64,000 bases of DNA, taken from Firmicutes bacterium ADurb.Bin193 (GTDB taxonomy: Bacteria; Bacillota; Clostridia; Monoglobales; Firm-18). This document shows, one piece after another, positions 2,152 to 9,889 of the stretch. The notes under the pieces were generated by a model, which saw only the letters and a list, made by a program, of their open reading frames with translations, was not told the DNA's origin and did not search any database. Every line of letters starts with the position of its first letter. The first letter of the stretch is position 1. The position numbers were made by a program, and so were the translations under genes. The stretch lies in the NCBI GenBank assembly GCA_002070105.1, contig MWCQ01000005.1, forward strand, positions 1 through 64,000, read 5' to 3'.

Positions 2152-2256
2152 CACCATGTAGTATGCGTGTCGTTCAAAAAAGCTTAGTCGGTAAATAGTA
2201 ATTGTCATTCTTCGCTTTATTCTATTCGTTTTGAGTGACGCCCTTTTAAGGGTACT
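2152..2256. repeat. dispersed repeat family A, copy 2
   Basis: Matches copy 1 in order: ATGTAGTATGCGTGTCG, then AAAAAAGCTTAGTCGG, ATTGTCATTC, and the terminal GACGCCCTTTTAAGGGTACT. The internal GAGCGTAGCGAAG part is degenerate or deleted. Its right edge touches the stop codon of the gene that follows on the minus strand. Confidence 0.6.
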
Positions 2257-2701
2257 AAATTGCCAGCGCCTTAATTCCGTAAAGGCGCACGGCCATACGG
2301 GTTATAAGTCGTTTTCTGTTTCTTCTTACCGTTGACACATCGCAATTTAGAATTTCCGCTATTACCTCATCGCTTTTCCGCTCAAAATATCTCATTTTAA
2401 TAATCAGCGCATAGTAGTCGCCGTCAAAGGCAGAAACAGAGTCGTCAATCCTCGAAATCTCACGCCTGCAATCCTCTATCTGGCGCTTTATGTTGTCGAT
2501 CTTTATCTGCTGGATCTCATCGGGCGAAAGCCTCACCCCGCCGTTTACGCTTCTGTAAAGGATATCCCTTGACTTTGAAGCCGGCCCCTCCTTTAGCATA
2601 TCCTGAAGGTCAAGAAGGTCATTTTCCATCTTCGCCTTAAGGTCGTTATATGCGAAAAGCCGTGCCTCCGTCATCTTATAATAGCATTTATTATCACTCA
2701 C
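2255..2701 (-). CDS. phage-type transcriptional regulator, ArpU/sigma-like HTH
   Basis: A 148-residue protein whose last 45 residues form a sigma-region-4-like helix-turn-helix (KSDEVIAEILNCDVSTVRRN, then RKRLITRMA). The long central part is charged and probably helical (MENDLLDLQDMLKEG; IKRQIEDCRREISRID). This layout matches the ArpU/RinA-like late regulators of Gram-positive prophages, which is how I read it; the target is unknown. The start is GTG at 2701, chosen because GGAG lies about 9 nt before it. It overlaps the upstream gene by 8 nt, so the two are probably translated together. No phage structural genes are nearby. Confidence 0.6.
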   Translation of the reverse strand: MSDNKCYYKMTEARLFAYNDLKAKMENDLLDLQDMLKEGPASKSRDILYRSVNGGVRLSPDEIQQIKIDNIKRQIEDCRREISRIDDSVSAFDGDYYALIIKMRYFERKSDEVIAEILNCDVSTVRRNRKRLITRMAVRLYGIKALAI

Positions 2702-2984
2702 AATAGTTATCTCCTTCCCAATCATCGAAAACATCCAGAGCATTATATTTGGTCAAAAGCTCATTAAATACATCCTGAAGCAGGCATAAATCGCTGAATA
2801 AATACTGCATTACAAGTTCCTTGTTTTCTGTTAAGCTGTCTATCATACAGTCCTCATGAACAATATATCGGGCGCTTGTATAAATTTCGGAAAGGTCATA
2901 CACCGTGTCGCCCGAATATATTTCTCCGTGACAACAACCGCAATACGAAATCGGAGATTCGTTTTGTATATTATATGTAAACAT
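2694..2984 (-). CDS. small Cys-rich protein, phage-like, unknown function
   Basis: A 96-residue protein I do not recognise. It has a possible zinc site (CGCC followed by HEDC some 25 residues later) at the N-terminal half, and a leucine-rich acidic C-terminal half. Start ATG is preceded by GGGAGGT at normal spacing. It overlaps the ArpU-like gene downstream by 8 nt, and its upstream region carries a pair of GTTAAC palindromes. Small proteins of this sort with a zinc knuckle are common in prophage early regions, so the context suggests an accessory phage or integrative-element gene. Confidence 0.5.
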   Translation of the reverse strand: MFTYNIQNESPISYCGCCHGEIYSGDTVYDLSEIYTSARYIVHEDCMIDSLTENKELVMQYLFSDLCLLQDVFNELLTKYNALDVFDDWEGDNYCE

Positions 2985-2997
2985 ATATACCTCCCGT

Positions 2998-3014
2998 GTT
3001 AACGATATGTTAAC
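2998..3014. promoter_or_regulatory. pair of GTTAAC palindromes (candidate operator)
   Basis: Two GTTAAC hexamers (2998-3003 and 3009-3014) lie 11 bp apart just upstream of the Cys-rich gene. The same hexamer sits inside both divergent promoters at 3274-3279 and 3348-3353. The repeated placement suggests repressor binding sites; this is inference from position. Confidence 0.4.
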
Positions 3015-3231
3015 ATTGCGACAAAAATATGTCCTCGAATTTTACGCCGAAAAGCTCAACGAGAATTGCAATCTCGTTAGCATCGAATCTTCCCAGACCT
3101 TTTTCCTTGCGGTTGTAGGTTGCGGTGGAAATTCCGAGTATGCCCGCAATATCACACTGTGTTATCATTTTTTCGGCGCGCAAGCCTTTTAGCTTTGCTA
3201 TCGGTTTTAATTCCCTTTTTGTGTTTTTCAT
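3010..3231 (-). CDS. Cro/CI-type HTH regulator (XRE family)
   Basis: A 73-residue DNA-binding protein made up almost entirely of one XRE helix-turn-helix: KLKGLRAEKMITQCDIAGIL, then GISTATYNRKEKG, and VELFGVKFEDIF. The start ATG at 3231 is chosen because GGAGGTAGAAAG precedes it; an upstream in-frame start lacks a ribosome site and would lie inside the promoter. It is divergent from the repressor-like gene at 3389, the arrangement of cro and cI in temperate phages. A near-perfect consensus promoter drives it. Confidence 0.8.
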   Translation of the reverse strand: MKNTKRELKPIAKLKGLRAEKMITQCDIAGILGISTATYNRKEKGLGRFDANEIAILVELFGVKFEDIFLSQC

Positions 3232-3267
3232 CTTTCTACCTCCCATATAAAATTTTTTGTTAATATC

Positions 3268-3296
3268 ATTATAGTTAACAAACGGTAAACTGTCAA
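3268..3296 (-). promoter_or_regulatory. consensus promoter for the XRE gene at 3010-3231
   Basis: On the minus strand TTGACA (3291-3296), 17 bp, TATAAT (3268-3273): both hexamers are perfect sigma-A consensus. A GTTAAC palindrome (3274-3279) abuts the -10 box within the spacer, where a bound repressor would block RNA polymerase. Confidence 0.8.
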
Positions 3297-3337
3297 CCAC
3301 AAATATTGCACAAAATTATAATAAAAATAAAAAAATG

Positions 3338-3366
3338 TTGCATTATTGTTAACTTGGTGGTATAAT
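3338..3366 (+). promoter_or_regulatory. promoter for the CI-like gene at 3389-3715
   Basis: TTGCAT (3338-3343), 17 bp, TATAAT (3361-3366). A GTTAAC palindrome (3348-3353) lies in the spacer, as in the divergent promoter. Confidence 0.75.
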
Positions 3367-3388
3367 GCTTTTGAAGGGGGGAATAAGA

Positions 3389-3715
3389 ATGGTCAGTTTC
3401 GGTACAAGGCTGAGAGCCTTGCGTCGTGAAAATTTTTTAACTCAGGATGAGCTTGCTAAGGAGCTTGAAAAATTAGGGTGCTTTGCAACGACAAAGTGCG
3501 CTATTTCGCAATATGAGAACGGTAAACGCTTTCCTGATGTGAAGGCGCTTAGAATTATAGCCGATTTTTTCAAGGTGTCCACAGACTATATTTTGGGGAA
3601 TGACGATTGCGAGGAAGAACAAAAAATGCTGTCGCTTTTCAGAAGGCTGGACGAAAAGGGAAAGCAGATGACCATTGCGTATGCCACGGCGCTTTATGAT
3701 TCGGCTAACCGATAA
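3389..3715 (+). CDS. phage-repressor-like HTH protein (CI/XRE family)
   Basis: A 108-residue protein. An XRE helix-turn-helix occupies residues about 5-65 (LRALRRENFLTQDELAKELE, then CAISQYENGKRFPD and IADFFKVSTDYILG), followed by a short C-terminal helix (EEEQKMLSLFRRLDEKGKQM). There is no LexA/CI-type peptidase domain, so this is a short repressor. Start ATG at 3389 follows GGGGGGA at good spacing. It faces the Cro-like gene across a 157-bp region holding both promoters and the GTTAAC palindromes, so the pair probably forms a switch. A strong terminator follows. Confidence 0.8.
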   Translation: MVSFGTRLRALRRENFLTQDELAKELEKLGCFATTKCAISQYENGKRFPDVKALRIIADFFKVSTDYILGNDDCEEEQKMLSLFRRLDEKGKQMTIAYATALYDSANR

Positions 3716-5721: not shown

Positions 5722-5749
5722 TTGATTTATAGAAAAAATATGATATAAT
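5722..5749 (+). promoter_or_regulatory. promoter of the restriction-modification operon
   Basis: TTGATT (5722-5727), 16 bp, TATAAT (5744-5749) in an extremely AT-rich leader, 30 bp before the first gene. The start of the very AT-rich block is visible from about 5575. I find no clear symmetrical controller box. Confidence 0.55.
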
Positions 5750-5778: not shown

Positions 5779-6003
5779 ATGGTGATAAGTTATGATAAGC
5801 TTTGGAAATTACTTGTTGATAAAAAGATGACAAAAACACAATTTAGGTTAGCCACAAATATAGGTACTGCTACGCTGGCAAGGCTTGGGAAAGAACAACC
5901 CGTAAGGATGGAAATCTTACTAAAAATCTGTGGCTATTTTAAATGTAACATTTCTGACATTATGGATTTTATTATTGACCAAGGAGGTAGTGACCATGAA
6001 TAA
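5779..6003 (+). CDS. XRE-type regulator of the R-M operon (controller-like)
   Basis: A 74-residue HTH protein (YDKLWKLLVDKKMTKTQFRL, then NIGTATLARLGKEQPVRMEI and ICGYFKCNISDIMDFI). Small XRE proteins of this kind often sit directly in front of methyltransferase genes, where they set the timing of restriction; that role is inferred here from position. Start ATG at 5779 is chosen because GAGGTG precedes it at proper spacing; a GTG nine bases upstream is inside that site. Its stop codon overlaps the methyltransferase start by 8 nt. Base composition is AT-rich like the two genes after it. Confidence 0.75.
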   Translation: MVISYDKLWKLLVDKKMTKTQFRLATNIGTATLARLGKEQPVRMEILLKICGYFKCNISDIMDFIIDQGGSDHE

Positions 6004-8419
6004 TAAATATACATATATTAGTCTTTTTAGTGGAGCAGGAATAGGATGTTACGGGTTTCAAGAAAACGGCTTTGAATGTATTGCTACAAATGAATTGAAT
6101 GAAAACAGAATAATGATACAAAAGGCGAATAATAAATGTAAATATGAAAGTGGATATATATGCGGGGATATTACATTAGATGAAAACCGTTCTATACTAT
6201 ATGATGAAATTGAAAGGTGGAAGAAAAACGAGAATATTAATCGTGTCGATGTTATTATTGCTACGCCACCTTGTCAAGGAATGTCTACAGCTAATTATAA
6301 AAAAGCTGACGAGCAAAACAGAAATTCTCTTGTCGTTAGTGCAATTAAAATTATAAATGATATAAAACCAAGAATTTTCCTTTTCGAAAATGTTAAAGCT
6401 TTTATGAATACAATGTGTACTGATTTAGACGGAAGAGATAAACTAATTTCCCAGAGCATATTAGAGAATTTGTCAGGGGAATATAATATTTATTCAAAGA
6501 TTATAAATTTTAAAGATTATGGCGTTCCGTCAAGCAGACCTCGGACAATTGTTATCGGAACATCAAAACAGTTGTTAAATGTTTCTCCCCTTAATTTATT
6601 TCCAATTAAACAAGAAGAAATTACGCTTAGGAAAGCAATTGGTTTTTTAAAACCATTAGCCTATGGTGAGTGTGATGAAAATGATATCTATCATTTTGCA
6701 AGGGAATATCCCCGTTATATGCAGGAATGGATTTCTGATATAAAGGAAGGGCAAAGCGCTTTTCAAAATAATGAAAATATAAAACCATATAAGATTATTA
6801 ACGGTAAAAAACAATTGCTTCGCTCGGCACATTTGGGTAATAAATTTAGAAGATTATTTTGGGATAAGCCTGGCGCCTGTATTACTACAAGAAACGATCA
6901 ATTAGCAAGTCAGGATACGATTCATCCTTCAGACGATAGAGTTTTGAGCATTAGAGAGTTGATGATCTTGATGAGTATACCTAATACATTTAAATGGACT
7001 AACCAAGATGTATCAACAATTAATGACAAAAAGAAATTTCTGAGGAGAAATGAATTAAATATTCGTAGATGTATTGGTGAAGCAGTTCCCACTAAAATAA
7101 TGGCAGATATTGCAAATAATATCAAGGAAATGCTACAGTTTGAGGATTTTATTAACACATACAAGGGAAGCGATTTAAAAAAGTTATTTAATCAGAATTT
7201 ATTTAAAGATAACTTTTACATTAAAGCATTTTTAGAAGAGGAGTATTTAAAGAATAGAAAATCGACTGGTTCATTTTATACTCCGCAAAGTGTTGTTTTT
7301 AATGCACTGAAAAATTACAAACCTGACAATTTGCAAAGCTTAAGAATACTTGAACCTGCTGTAGGTCTTGGTGCATTTTTACCACAGCTATTAAGGATAA
7401 TTGATGAAGTGCAAGAAGTTGTTATTGATGTAATTGATATTAGTTTTAGTGCTTTAGAAACATTAAAAGAAAGTATAAAGCTTCTAAAGTGGCCGCCTAA
7501 TGTTAAAATTAATTATATATGTCAGGATTTTTTGAAATACGATTTAAAAGATAATAGTTACGATCTTGTTGTTACAAATCCGCCTTATGGAAAGCCCAAA
7601 GGTAATGAATTAAAGGAATATCGCAAATTATTTAATAATAAATCAAATAACTTATTTGATTTTTTTATGCAGAAACTTGAAGGCAGTGCAAAAGAAATAA
7701 TATGTATTATTCCAAAAACATTTTTGATGGCGGCGGACTATGAAGAAACCAGAAAAAAATACGAAAAGTATCCTATTGTTTCTGTTAATGATTTTGGTGT
7801 GAAATTTTTCAAAAGAGTATTTGTTGAGATAATATCTATTCATTTTAAAAAAGACTATAAAGATGATATGATTGTAGAGTCAATGATTAATAAAAAAAAA
7901 CTTGTCCAAAAACAAGGTTACATTTATCACGATAAAGGATGGTTGCTTTATAGGGATGAATGGTTTGATAAATTTATTGAGAGTTTGCAACTTGATTATT
8001 TTACATTTTTTAGAGACAGGCAAATAACAAATAAACATCTTCTCAGCAAGGGGAAAATTAGAGTATTAAAATCAAAAAATATTTTGGATACAGGAGAAAT
8101 AATTAATATTGATGGATATGATGCTTATCTTGATAATGTAGATAATTTTTTAGTAAGTAAGTTCTTAAACAAAAAATGTATTATTATGCCGAATTTCACC
8201 TATAATACAAGAGCCACAATGCTTCCATGTAATTGTATTCCCAATGGATCAATAGTGATTCTAATCCCCAAAAACGGTAATATTAATGAAGTTGCGTTAG
8301 AACTATATGCTACTGAGGAATTTAGAAAATACTACGCAATAATAAAAAATAATGCTAAATTTACATTAAACATTGATTCAAGCTCAATTTATTACATAGG
8401 GGTGAAAAAAAATGATTAA
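5996..8419 (+). CDS. fused C5-cytosine / N6-adenine DNA methyltransferase
   Basis: An 807-residue protein made of two complete methyltransferases. Residues 1 to about 385 are a C5-cytosine enzyme: SAM motif LFSGAG (10-15), catalytic PPCQG (91-95, Cys93), ENV (131-133), RPR (181-183) and the closing GEAVP (361-365). Residues about 395-807 are a gamma-class N6-adenine enzyme: TGSFYTP (424-430), LEPAVGLGAF (452-461) and catalytic NPPY (528-531), followed by a long tail that probably recognises DNA. Two different modifications in one system usually protect the two strands of an asymmetric site, as in Eco31I/Alw26I/Esp3I-type systems, where the enzymes are separate as far as I know. Start ATG follows AAGGAGG. 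The gene overlaps its neighbours on both sides by 8 nt and is very AT-rich, indicating transfer. Confidence 0.9.
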   Translation: MNNKYTYISLFSGAGIGCYGFQENGFECIATNELNENRIMIQKANNKCKYESGYICGDITLDENRSILYDEIERWKKNENINRVDVIIATPPCQGMSTANYKKADEQNRNSLVVSAIKIINDIKPRIFLFENVKAFMNTMCTDLDGRDKLISQSILENLSGEYNIYSKIINFKDYGVPSSRPRTIVIGTSKQLLNVSPLNLFPIKQEEITLRKAIGFLKPLAYGECDENDIYHFAREYPRYMQEWISDIKEGQSAFQNNENIKPYKIINGKKQLLRSAHLGNKFRRLFWDKPGACITTRNDQLASQDTIHPSDDRVLSIRELMILMSIPNTFKWTNQDVSTINDKKKFLRRNELNIRRCIGEAVPTKIMADIANNIKEMLQFEDFINTYKGSDLKKLFNQNLFKDNFYIKAFLEEEYLKNRKSTGSFYTPQSVVFNALKNYKPDNLQSLRILEPAVGLGAFLPQLLRIIDEVQEVVIDVIDISFSALETLKESIKLLKWPPNVKINYICQDFLKYDLKDNSYDLVVTNPPYGKPKGNELKEYRKLFNNKSNNLFDFFMQKLEGSAKEIICIIPKTFLMAADYEETRKKYEKYPIVSVNDFGVKFFKRVFVEIISIHFKKDYKDDMIVESMINKKKLVQKQGYIYHDKGWLLYRDEWFDKFIESLQLDYFTFFRDRQITNKHLLSKGKIRVLKSKNILDTGEIINIDGYDAYLDNVDNFLVSKFLNKKCIIMPNFTYNTRATMLPCNCIPNGSIVILIPKNGNINEVALELYATEEFRKYYAIIKNNAKFTLNIDSSSIYYIGVKKND

Positions 8420-9698
8420 TACAATTATAAAGAATCTTAGAGATGTGAGTTTGTCTCAGAAAAAAGGCAGGTTCTTATCGGACAAATCCTATGGTTTTGA
8501 TACAGTATTTTTTATTGCAAAATTTATAATACATAATTCAAAGAGAGATTTGTTTAATCGCAGGGAGCTGAGGGAAAGCGCTACCGAATATACAGAAGAC
8601 TTATTTAATTTAAGGCCCGGAACCGCTGGTGCTGTTAATTATTTTGTTGAAACAGTTAACTTATTTGAATATGCAAATATTATTGAAAAAGTTGATTCTA
8701 ATAATTATAGAATAATTAATCCTGATATTTTGGAGTTTATTGGTAAGCTACCCGAAAACGCATACATATTTCTTTATCTTTTAACTTATATGACATACAA
8801 AAATGATGGAATATGGCCTTTGTTTGAAAAATATTGTTCAACAAAAAATGTTGAAAAAAAAGAAGATATTGCAAATAGTATTTTTAGTGTTTTCAGCAGT
8901 AAGTCAACTAGTATTGAAGATAAGGAAACGAACTGGTCTAAACAGTTAGTAAAGTATTCGTTAACCATACTCGGATATATAAATGAAGAATATTATATTG
9001 CACGAACATTGAGAGTTCATGATAGAATTTGGACTGTTGAAGATATCGCATTAAATGTAGCAGGAACTCGCACACCTATAACATTGCCAAAAAAGAATGA
9101 TTATATCTCAAAATTTTCAAAAGACTATGTTGCGAATCAGTTAAAGCCTTATTTAATATCAGTACCCAAAATAGAAATTGCCAAAACAGAAATCACAGAG
9201 AGTATTGCAAGCGGCTTAGCGGATATTAAGCTTGAAATGATAGATCTAAAAAAGGTTATGAGCATTGATTCGAAATTTGACAAACAACAATTTATTGAAA
9301 TCGAAAACCAGATAAAAAGAAGAAATCCATCTATCCAGTCAGAATTTAGGAAAAGTCTGTTTGAAAATAATAAAAGTATTTGCACAATTTGTAGCTTTTC
9401 TTATAGAGATTTTTTAATAGCAAGCCATATAAAGCCGTATGCTATTTGTAAAGATACTTATGATGCAATAAACCATTTTAATGGACTGCTCTTATGTCCT
9501 AATCATGATAAGCTTTTTGAAGGGGCAAAACATATGACAATTGATTATAGAACAGGGGAAATAATACTAAATGATTCTGCTAAACGCTCGAAAGAATTTG
9601 GTATGCTTAATGGAAAAAGCATCGATAAAAGACTTGTTCAGTGCGAGCGTAAGCACTATTTGCAATGGCATAATGAACAGTTTGAAAAAAACAGATAA
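8412..9698 (+). CDS. type II restriction endonuclease with C-terminal HNH domain
   Basis: A 428-residue protein whose C-terminal part carries an HNH_2-type nuclease site: C324 and C327 of a zinc pair, ASHIKPY with H339, N357 in FNGLLLCPNHDKLF, then C362 and H365. The N-terminal 300 residues are not recognised; around 50-110 they look like a winged helix and may read the DNA sequence. It begins 8 nt before the end of the dual methyltransferase gene, so both are translated together and this is almost certainly the cognate nuclease. HNH nucleases paired with a C5 and an N6A methyltransferase are known from the Eco31I group (type IIS); specificity here is unknown. The gene is as AT-rich as the methyltransferase. 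Confidence 0.8.
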   Translation: MINTIIKNLRDVSLSQKKGRFLSDKSYGFDTVFFIAKFIIHNSKRDLFNRRELRESATEYTEDLFNLRPGTAGAVNYFVETVNLFEYANIIEKVDSNNYRIINPDILEFIGKLPENAYIFLYLLTYMTYKNDGIWPLFEKYCSTKNVEKKEDIANSIFSVFSSKSTSIEDKETNWSKQLVKYSLTILGYINEEYYIARTLRVHDRIWTVEDIALNVAGTRTPITLPKKNDYISKFSKDYVANQLKPYLISVPKIEIAKTEITESIASGLADIKLEMIDLKKVMSIDSKFDKQQFIEIENQIKRRNPSIQSEFRKSLFENNKSICTICSFSYRDFLIASHIKPYAICKDTYDAINHFNGLLLCPNHDKLFEGAKHMTIDYRTGEIILNDSAKRSKEFGMLNGKSIDKRLVQCERKHYLQWHNEQFEKNR

Positions 9699-9889
9699 GA
9701 TTATAACGATTTAACTGCAGTATGATTATGTCAGTTTCATAACGGAAAAAAAGTAAATATTATATGTCCTTTTGAAAATGCTTTCTACAAAATATTTTAG
9801 GGAGAGATAAGGATTCCCCTTAAAAATTACTCGCCCTCCCTTGAACTCCTTGAATTAATTAATAAGCTTTTCGCTTGCGAAAAGCAACC

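Follow-up and report, generated by a model that had tools for sequence, protein, structure and literature searches.

A fused C5-cytosine and N6-adenine DNA methyltransferase in a putative Type IIS-like restriction-modification operon of Firmicutes bacterium ADurb.Bin193

Asymmetric restriction sites require two strand-specific marks, which must appear together. In Firmicutes bacterium ADurb.Bin193, one gene next to a nuclease gene encodes both a C5-cytosine and an N6-adenine DNA methyltransferase, which raises the question of whether its two halves mark opposite strands of a single site. The window analyzed was the first 64,000 nucleotides of contig MWCQ01000005.1, in which the fused gene (M) occupies positions 5996 to 8419 on the forward strand and encodes 807 amino acids. 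Its frame runs uninterrupted from an ATG at 5996 to a stop codon at 8417 to 8419, and is preceded by a strong Shine-Dalgarno sequence (AAGGAGGT, 5981 to 5988). An earlier note on this DNA had read M as a genuine fusion in which both halves keep their catalytic motifs, and this was borne out. The frame was checked for a stop codon or frameshift near residues 380 to 400 and neither was present, while an assembly join between the domains could be ruled out because the same junction was found in dozens of independent assemblies.

The N-terminal half of M (residues 6 to 377; 6011 to 7126, forward strand) matched PF00145 (E value, 3.4e-45; 155 bits against the Pfam cut-off of 22). Motifs I (residues 9 to 18), IV (90 to 95), VI (130 to 133), VIII (179 to 184), IX (320 to 323), and X (359 to 365) followed the canonical order, with a variable or target recognition (TRD) region at residues ∼200 to 300. 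All three C5 signatures named in the earlier note were found (PPCQG, 91 to 95; ENV, 131 to 133; GEAVP, 361 to 365), and together with the match above the Pfam cut-off, these motifs identify the half as a C5-cytosine DNA methyltransferase. It is joined by a linker (residues ∼381 to 412; 7136 to 7231, forward strand), predicted to be helical and the least conserved stretch of the protein (bin conservation, 0.35 to 0.45), to a second domain at residues ∼413 to 807 (7232 to 8416, forward strand). Pfam matches here were PF07669 (residues 483 to 602) and PF02384 (419 to 639). The gamma-class motifs expected from the note were likewise all present, as TGSFYTP in motif X (424 to 430), LEPAVGLGAF in motif I (452 to 461), and NPPY (528 to 531) in motif IV (528 to 532), and were followed by a C-terminal recognition domain at residues ∼640 to 807. 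An AlphaFold2 model of M reached a pLDDT of 90.2 and a pTM of 0.90. Foldseek aligned its C-terminal half with CamA, M.BseCI, and M.TaqI (E values, 6e-20 to 7e-16) and its N-terminal half with M.HaeIII, the closest solved structure, and other C5 enzymes. The motif order X-I-IV(NPPY)-TRD and the M.TaqI-like fold place the C-terminal half among the gamma-class N6-adenine methyltransferases.

Both halves look catalytically intact. Across 54 aligned family members, T90-P91-P92-C93-Q94-G95, E131-N132-V133, and R181/R183 were invariant in the C5 half, as was N528-P529-P530 in the gamma half. Degeneration of either half to a DNA-binding or structural part, for which the gamma half would be the likeliest candidate, appears very improbable. 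The gamma catalytic core shows the greater divergence, with identities of 0.29 to 0.55 across pairs, but NPP, the SAM motif, F461, and D511 were invariant or nearly so across 86 sequences, and the M.TaqI/CamA-like fold was recovered at high confidence from the model. The gamma recognition region exceeded the catalytic core of the same half in conservation (identity ratio, 1.1 to 1.4) and is therefore under selection, which is consistent with a constant target. The same reasoning was rejected for the C5 half, as unrelated C5 methylases used as controls gave equal or higher ratios.

M is the middle gene of a three-gene overlapping operon in the order C-M-R. The first gene (5779 to 6003, forward strand) encodes a 74-amino-acid HTH_26 protein of the Cro/C1 type (PF13443; E value, 1.7e-16), and the third encodes a 428-amino-acid restriction nuclease (R; 8412 to 9698, forward strand) with a C-terminal HNH domain. 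M shares 8 nt with each neighbor, its start with the 3′ end of the regulator gene and its end with the start of R; from these overlaps the three genes look translationally coupled. At least nine relatives (L024 to L028, L044, L071, L072, and L095) carry a homologous HTH gene directly 5′ of M. In a controller (C) protein operon, a small HTH gene lies 5′ of M and R and is inherited along with them, as is the case here, and the HTH_26 gene is likely the controller gene. A promoter-like site (TTGATT-16-TATAAT with TG; 5722 to 5749, forward strand) lies ∼30 nt 5′ of the regulator gene, although matches to this consensus occurred across the region at chance level, and a hairpin 3′ of the nuclease gene (9866 to 9885; a scan match given on the reverse strand) is a possible terminator. 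The GC content of the block was 28 to 32%, against ∼44 to 52% in most flanking kilobases, and no full-length relatives were found among 50 further genomes from the order and 397 more sampled across the phylum; both observations indicate horizontal acquisition of the operon. Just 5′ of the block, window positions 2255 to 3715 (GC, ∼40 to 42%) hold small phage-like or regulatory genes, including a sigma-70 region 4-like protein and XRE-type open reading frames.

Relatives were identified more widely. An earlier scan of genome contigs with the single M protein as query returned none, whereas an alignment-based scan of 84,980 species genomes returned 314. The best 80 of these all aligned over the full length of M; the list was ranked by match, which places fused members first, and these 80 do not represent the fused fraction of the whole. 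They came from Clostridia, Bacilli, Bacteroidales, Campylobacterales, candidate phyla radiation bacteria, and others, and fused full-length relatives were also found on one Psychrobacter plasmid and on two fecal contigs deposited as phage. The distribution of the fused family is sporadic. One relative (L066) has an in-frame stop codon inside the gamma half. Eight loci, mostly from Bacteroidales (L045, L064, L080, L082, L094, L096, L098, and L100), carry a conserved extra domain of ∼175 amino acids before the C5 half, for which Pfam gave no match.

The family has already been profiled. Residues 3 to 805 of M aligned to positions 5 to 820 of the 823-position PADLOC profile PDLC03277 (MTase_II; E value, 2.6e-183). 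Relatives with separate halves matched PDLC03370 and PDLC03382, and the nucleases of one group of relatives (clade B) matched PDLC03488 (REase_II); PADLOC labels all four as parts of Type II restriction-modification systems. On the strength of these full-length, split-half, and nuclease profiles, M is a member of a known and widespread family. R itself had only a weak PADLOC match (1.1e-10), confined to the HNH domain, and did not match PDLC03488; it shares the N-terminal domain with those nucleases and differs in its HNH domain. The full-length profile and the 314 relatives contradict the earlier expectation that a natural single-chain version would be uncommon. Nor does the accompanying view hold that the Eco31I/Alw26I/Esp3I group uses separate enzymes only, since the modification component of Esp3I/BsmBI is itself a fusion, M.Esp3I being described as gammaM~[GAGACG]~m5C-MTase (PMC3874165).

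Like M, M.Esp3I and M.BsmBI (Type IIS, CGTCTC) combine a gamma-class N6-adenine and a C5-cytosine methylase in one chain and have a partner nuclease. They apply one chemistry to each strand of the asymmetric site (PMC3874165), and the same is probably the case for M. However, the C5 half of M.Esp3I is circularly permuted (PMC5944983), whereas in M the C5 half comes first and its motifs I, IV, VI, VIII, IX, and X are canonical. The reverse domain order and canonical C5 half place M outside the Esp3I/BsmBI methylase family, but it probably works as that fusion does. Eco31I/BsaI and Alw26I also pair m5C with m6A on an asymmetric site, as proposed for M. Unlike M, Eco31I/BsaI has separate methylase genes and M2.Eco31I, M2.BsaI, and M.Alw26I have a permuted C5 domain, distinctions made here by description; Eco31I genes were not found in the EC958 stretches examined. 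The McrBC-related LlaJI system likewise uses two methylases for its asymmetric site, GACGC/GCGTC (PMC1459862). These are two separate m5C enzymes, accompanied by a B3 recognition domain (PMC12707154), in contrast to the single m5C~m6A chain and different N-terminal domain of the M family.

The N-terminal domain of R (residues 1 to 250; 8412 to 9161, forward strand) is common to nearly all partner nucleases, and a nuclease with a related N-terminal module lay beside or near M in 86 of 89 loci; of the other three, two had McrBC-type genes and the third lay at a contig end. The HNH motif (residues 324 to 370; 9381 to 9521, forward strand) matched PF13391 (2.5e-7). In profile searches it was most similar to modification-dependent or phosphorothioate-dependent HNH nucleases, namely, PDB entry 6yex (1.7e-11) and an NCBIfam model for phosphorothioate-dependent nucleases. 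These matches would suit a modification-dependent, Type IV-like R with a specificity unrelated to M, the operon then being a defense island pair. Yet the similarity is restricted to the HNH domain, the N-terminal domain contains no known modified-base reader, related nucleases are classed by PADLOC as Type II, and R overlaps M by 8 nt and co-occurs with it almost universally, so that we regard such a pairing as improbable. The two-domain layout fits a Type IIS nuclease, and the N-terminal domain, which had no significant fold match in the PDB, is probably the DNA recognition module. A winged-helix identity is not claimed for it, as the winged-helix-like matches, including that to MukE (E = 0.066), were weak.

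The most likely reading, to which we assign a probability of roughly 75% from sequence and structure prediction, is that the locus is a Type II (Type IIS-like) operon, gained by horizontal transfer, in which the halves of M mark opposite strands of one nonpalindromic site. The N-terminal half would place m5C on one strand of this short sequence and the C-terminal half m6A on the other. The N-terminal domain of R would find the same site when unmodified and its HNH domain would cut the DNA, a step that the dual mark would block, with the small HTH protein probably timing expression of the operon. Alternatively, the halves could methylate two independent motifs, as a bifunctional enzyme combining, for example, self-protection with a regulatory or anti-restriction mark. 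The AlphaFold2 model shows a separate recognition region for each half, and fused double methylases are not required to share a site. This was judged unlikely given that a single nuclease with a conserved N-terminal domain accompanies the methylase in nearly every locus, that the halves co-evolve, and that split forms adjoin the same nuclease family. Trees of the C5 and gamma halves were congruent (r = 0.90), with only two conflicting well-supported split pairs, and the clade containing the window and 22 close relatives (clade A) was monophyletic in both (support, 1.0), indicating that the halves have travelled together and been inherited jointly. In Acinetobacter (L012 and L014) they are two separate overlapping genes with the same nuclease family directly after, as expected if two methylases serve one asymmetric site; the halves are likewise split into overlapping genes on a viral contig (L109).

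Attempts to identify the proposed site gave no lead. When the family loci were pooled and compared with control loci for depleted k-mers, no clear asymmetric motif emerged. GACGC/GCGTC was dropped as a candidate, its value of 0.79 against 0.89 in controls being within the spread of other 5-mers, and none of the characterized specificities of MnlI, HphI, HpyAV, BccI, and LlaJI could be linked to the M family.

The cutting portions of the partner nucleases differed between clades. Those of clade A mostly ended in HNH_2, while those of clade B carried a different histidine-metal-type motif (HHIFP...N...H) that had no match in Pfam. The N-terminal domains of the two clades were homologous (hhalign probability, 97.8; E value, 1.1e-12; 217 columns) and the C termini were unlike each other. 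Within clade A, the N-terminal domain was fused to an McrB-like AAA motor in L038 and L041, with RE_LlaJI (PF09563) or McrBC (PF10117) nuclease genes coming next, and in L039 and L043 it was a separate small protein followed by the motor and a LlaJI-type nuclease (the Pfam scan covered L039). M-type methylases accompany an McrB-like motor and LlaJI-type nuclease in L038, L039, and L043, and PF09563 was confirmed in L038 and L039. In L030 and L036, motor and nuclease genes were found with no detectable N-terminal domain (Pfam scan on L030).

Some relatives carry further fusions. The C5 half, gamma half, and nuclease form one 1,286-codon frame without a stop in Alistipes (L073, 5893 to 9753), and a clade B nuclease continues in frame into a perforin-like MACPF domain in L078 (8492 to 11263; PF01823, 4.1e-12), a frame that also gave weak TPR matches. 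In L037 (8384 to 11721), the partner nuclease ends early, just past the N-terminal domain, and is followed by transposition genes resembling an IS21-type istA/istB pair. Two nuclease-like open reading frames, possibly a tandem duplication, lie 3′ of one fused methylase in L106 (3106 to 4371 and 4995 to 6260).

A tentative interpretation, to which we would give somewhat less than even odds, is that one recognition and protection kit, the C5~gamma methylase with a matching nuclease N-terminal domain, has been combined with at least three cutting engines, namely, HNH_2, a second kind of His-Me-type nuclease, and an McrB motor that is driven by NTP and paired with an McrC or LlaJI nuclease. Such an exchange may be undescribed; no paper on it was found in a literature largely without subscription journals. 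The constant N-terminal domain and exchanged cutting modules provide a natural test set for recombining recognition and cleavage, and if the site proves constant, they would amount to a series of natural domain swaps that could reveal the rules for fitting a restriction enzyme with a new engine. Fusion of the methylases guarantees an equal dose of both strand marks, and the M family would represent a C5-first version of fused two-strand protection spread over many phyla, each system being a candidate Type IIS enzyme.

The same genome encodes a second dual methylase fusion, on contig 4 at ∼16.3 to 18.7 kb (L018, 7276 to 9753, reverse strand). It joins a beta-class N6/N4 methylase to an apparently circularly permuted C5 methylase with motif I at the C-terminal end, in which PYQ replaces the catalytic PCQ. 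An intact 389-amino-acid C5 copy lies beside it, within an element flanked by integrase/recombinase genes.
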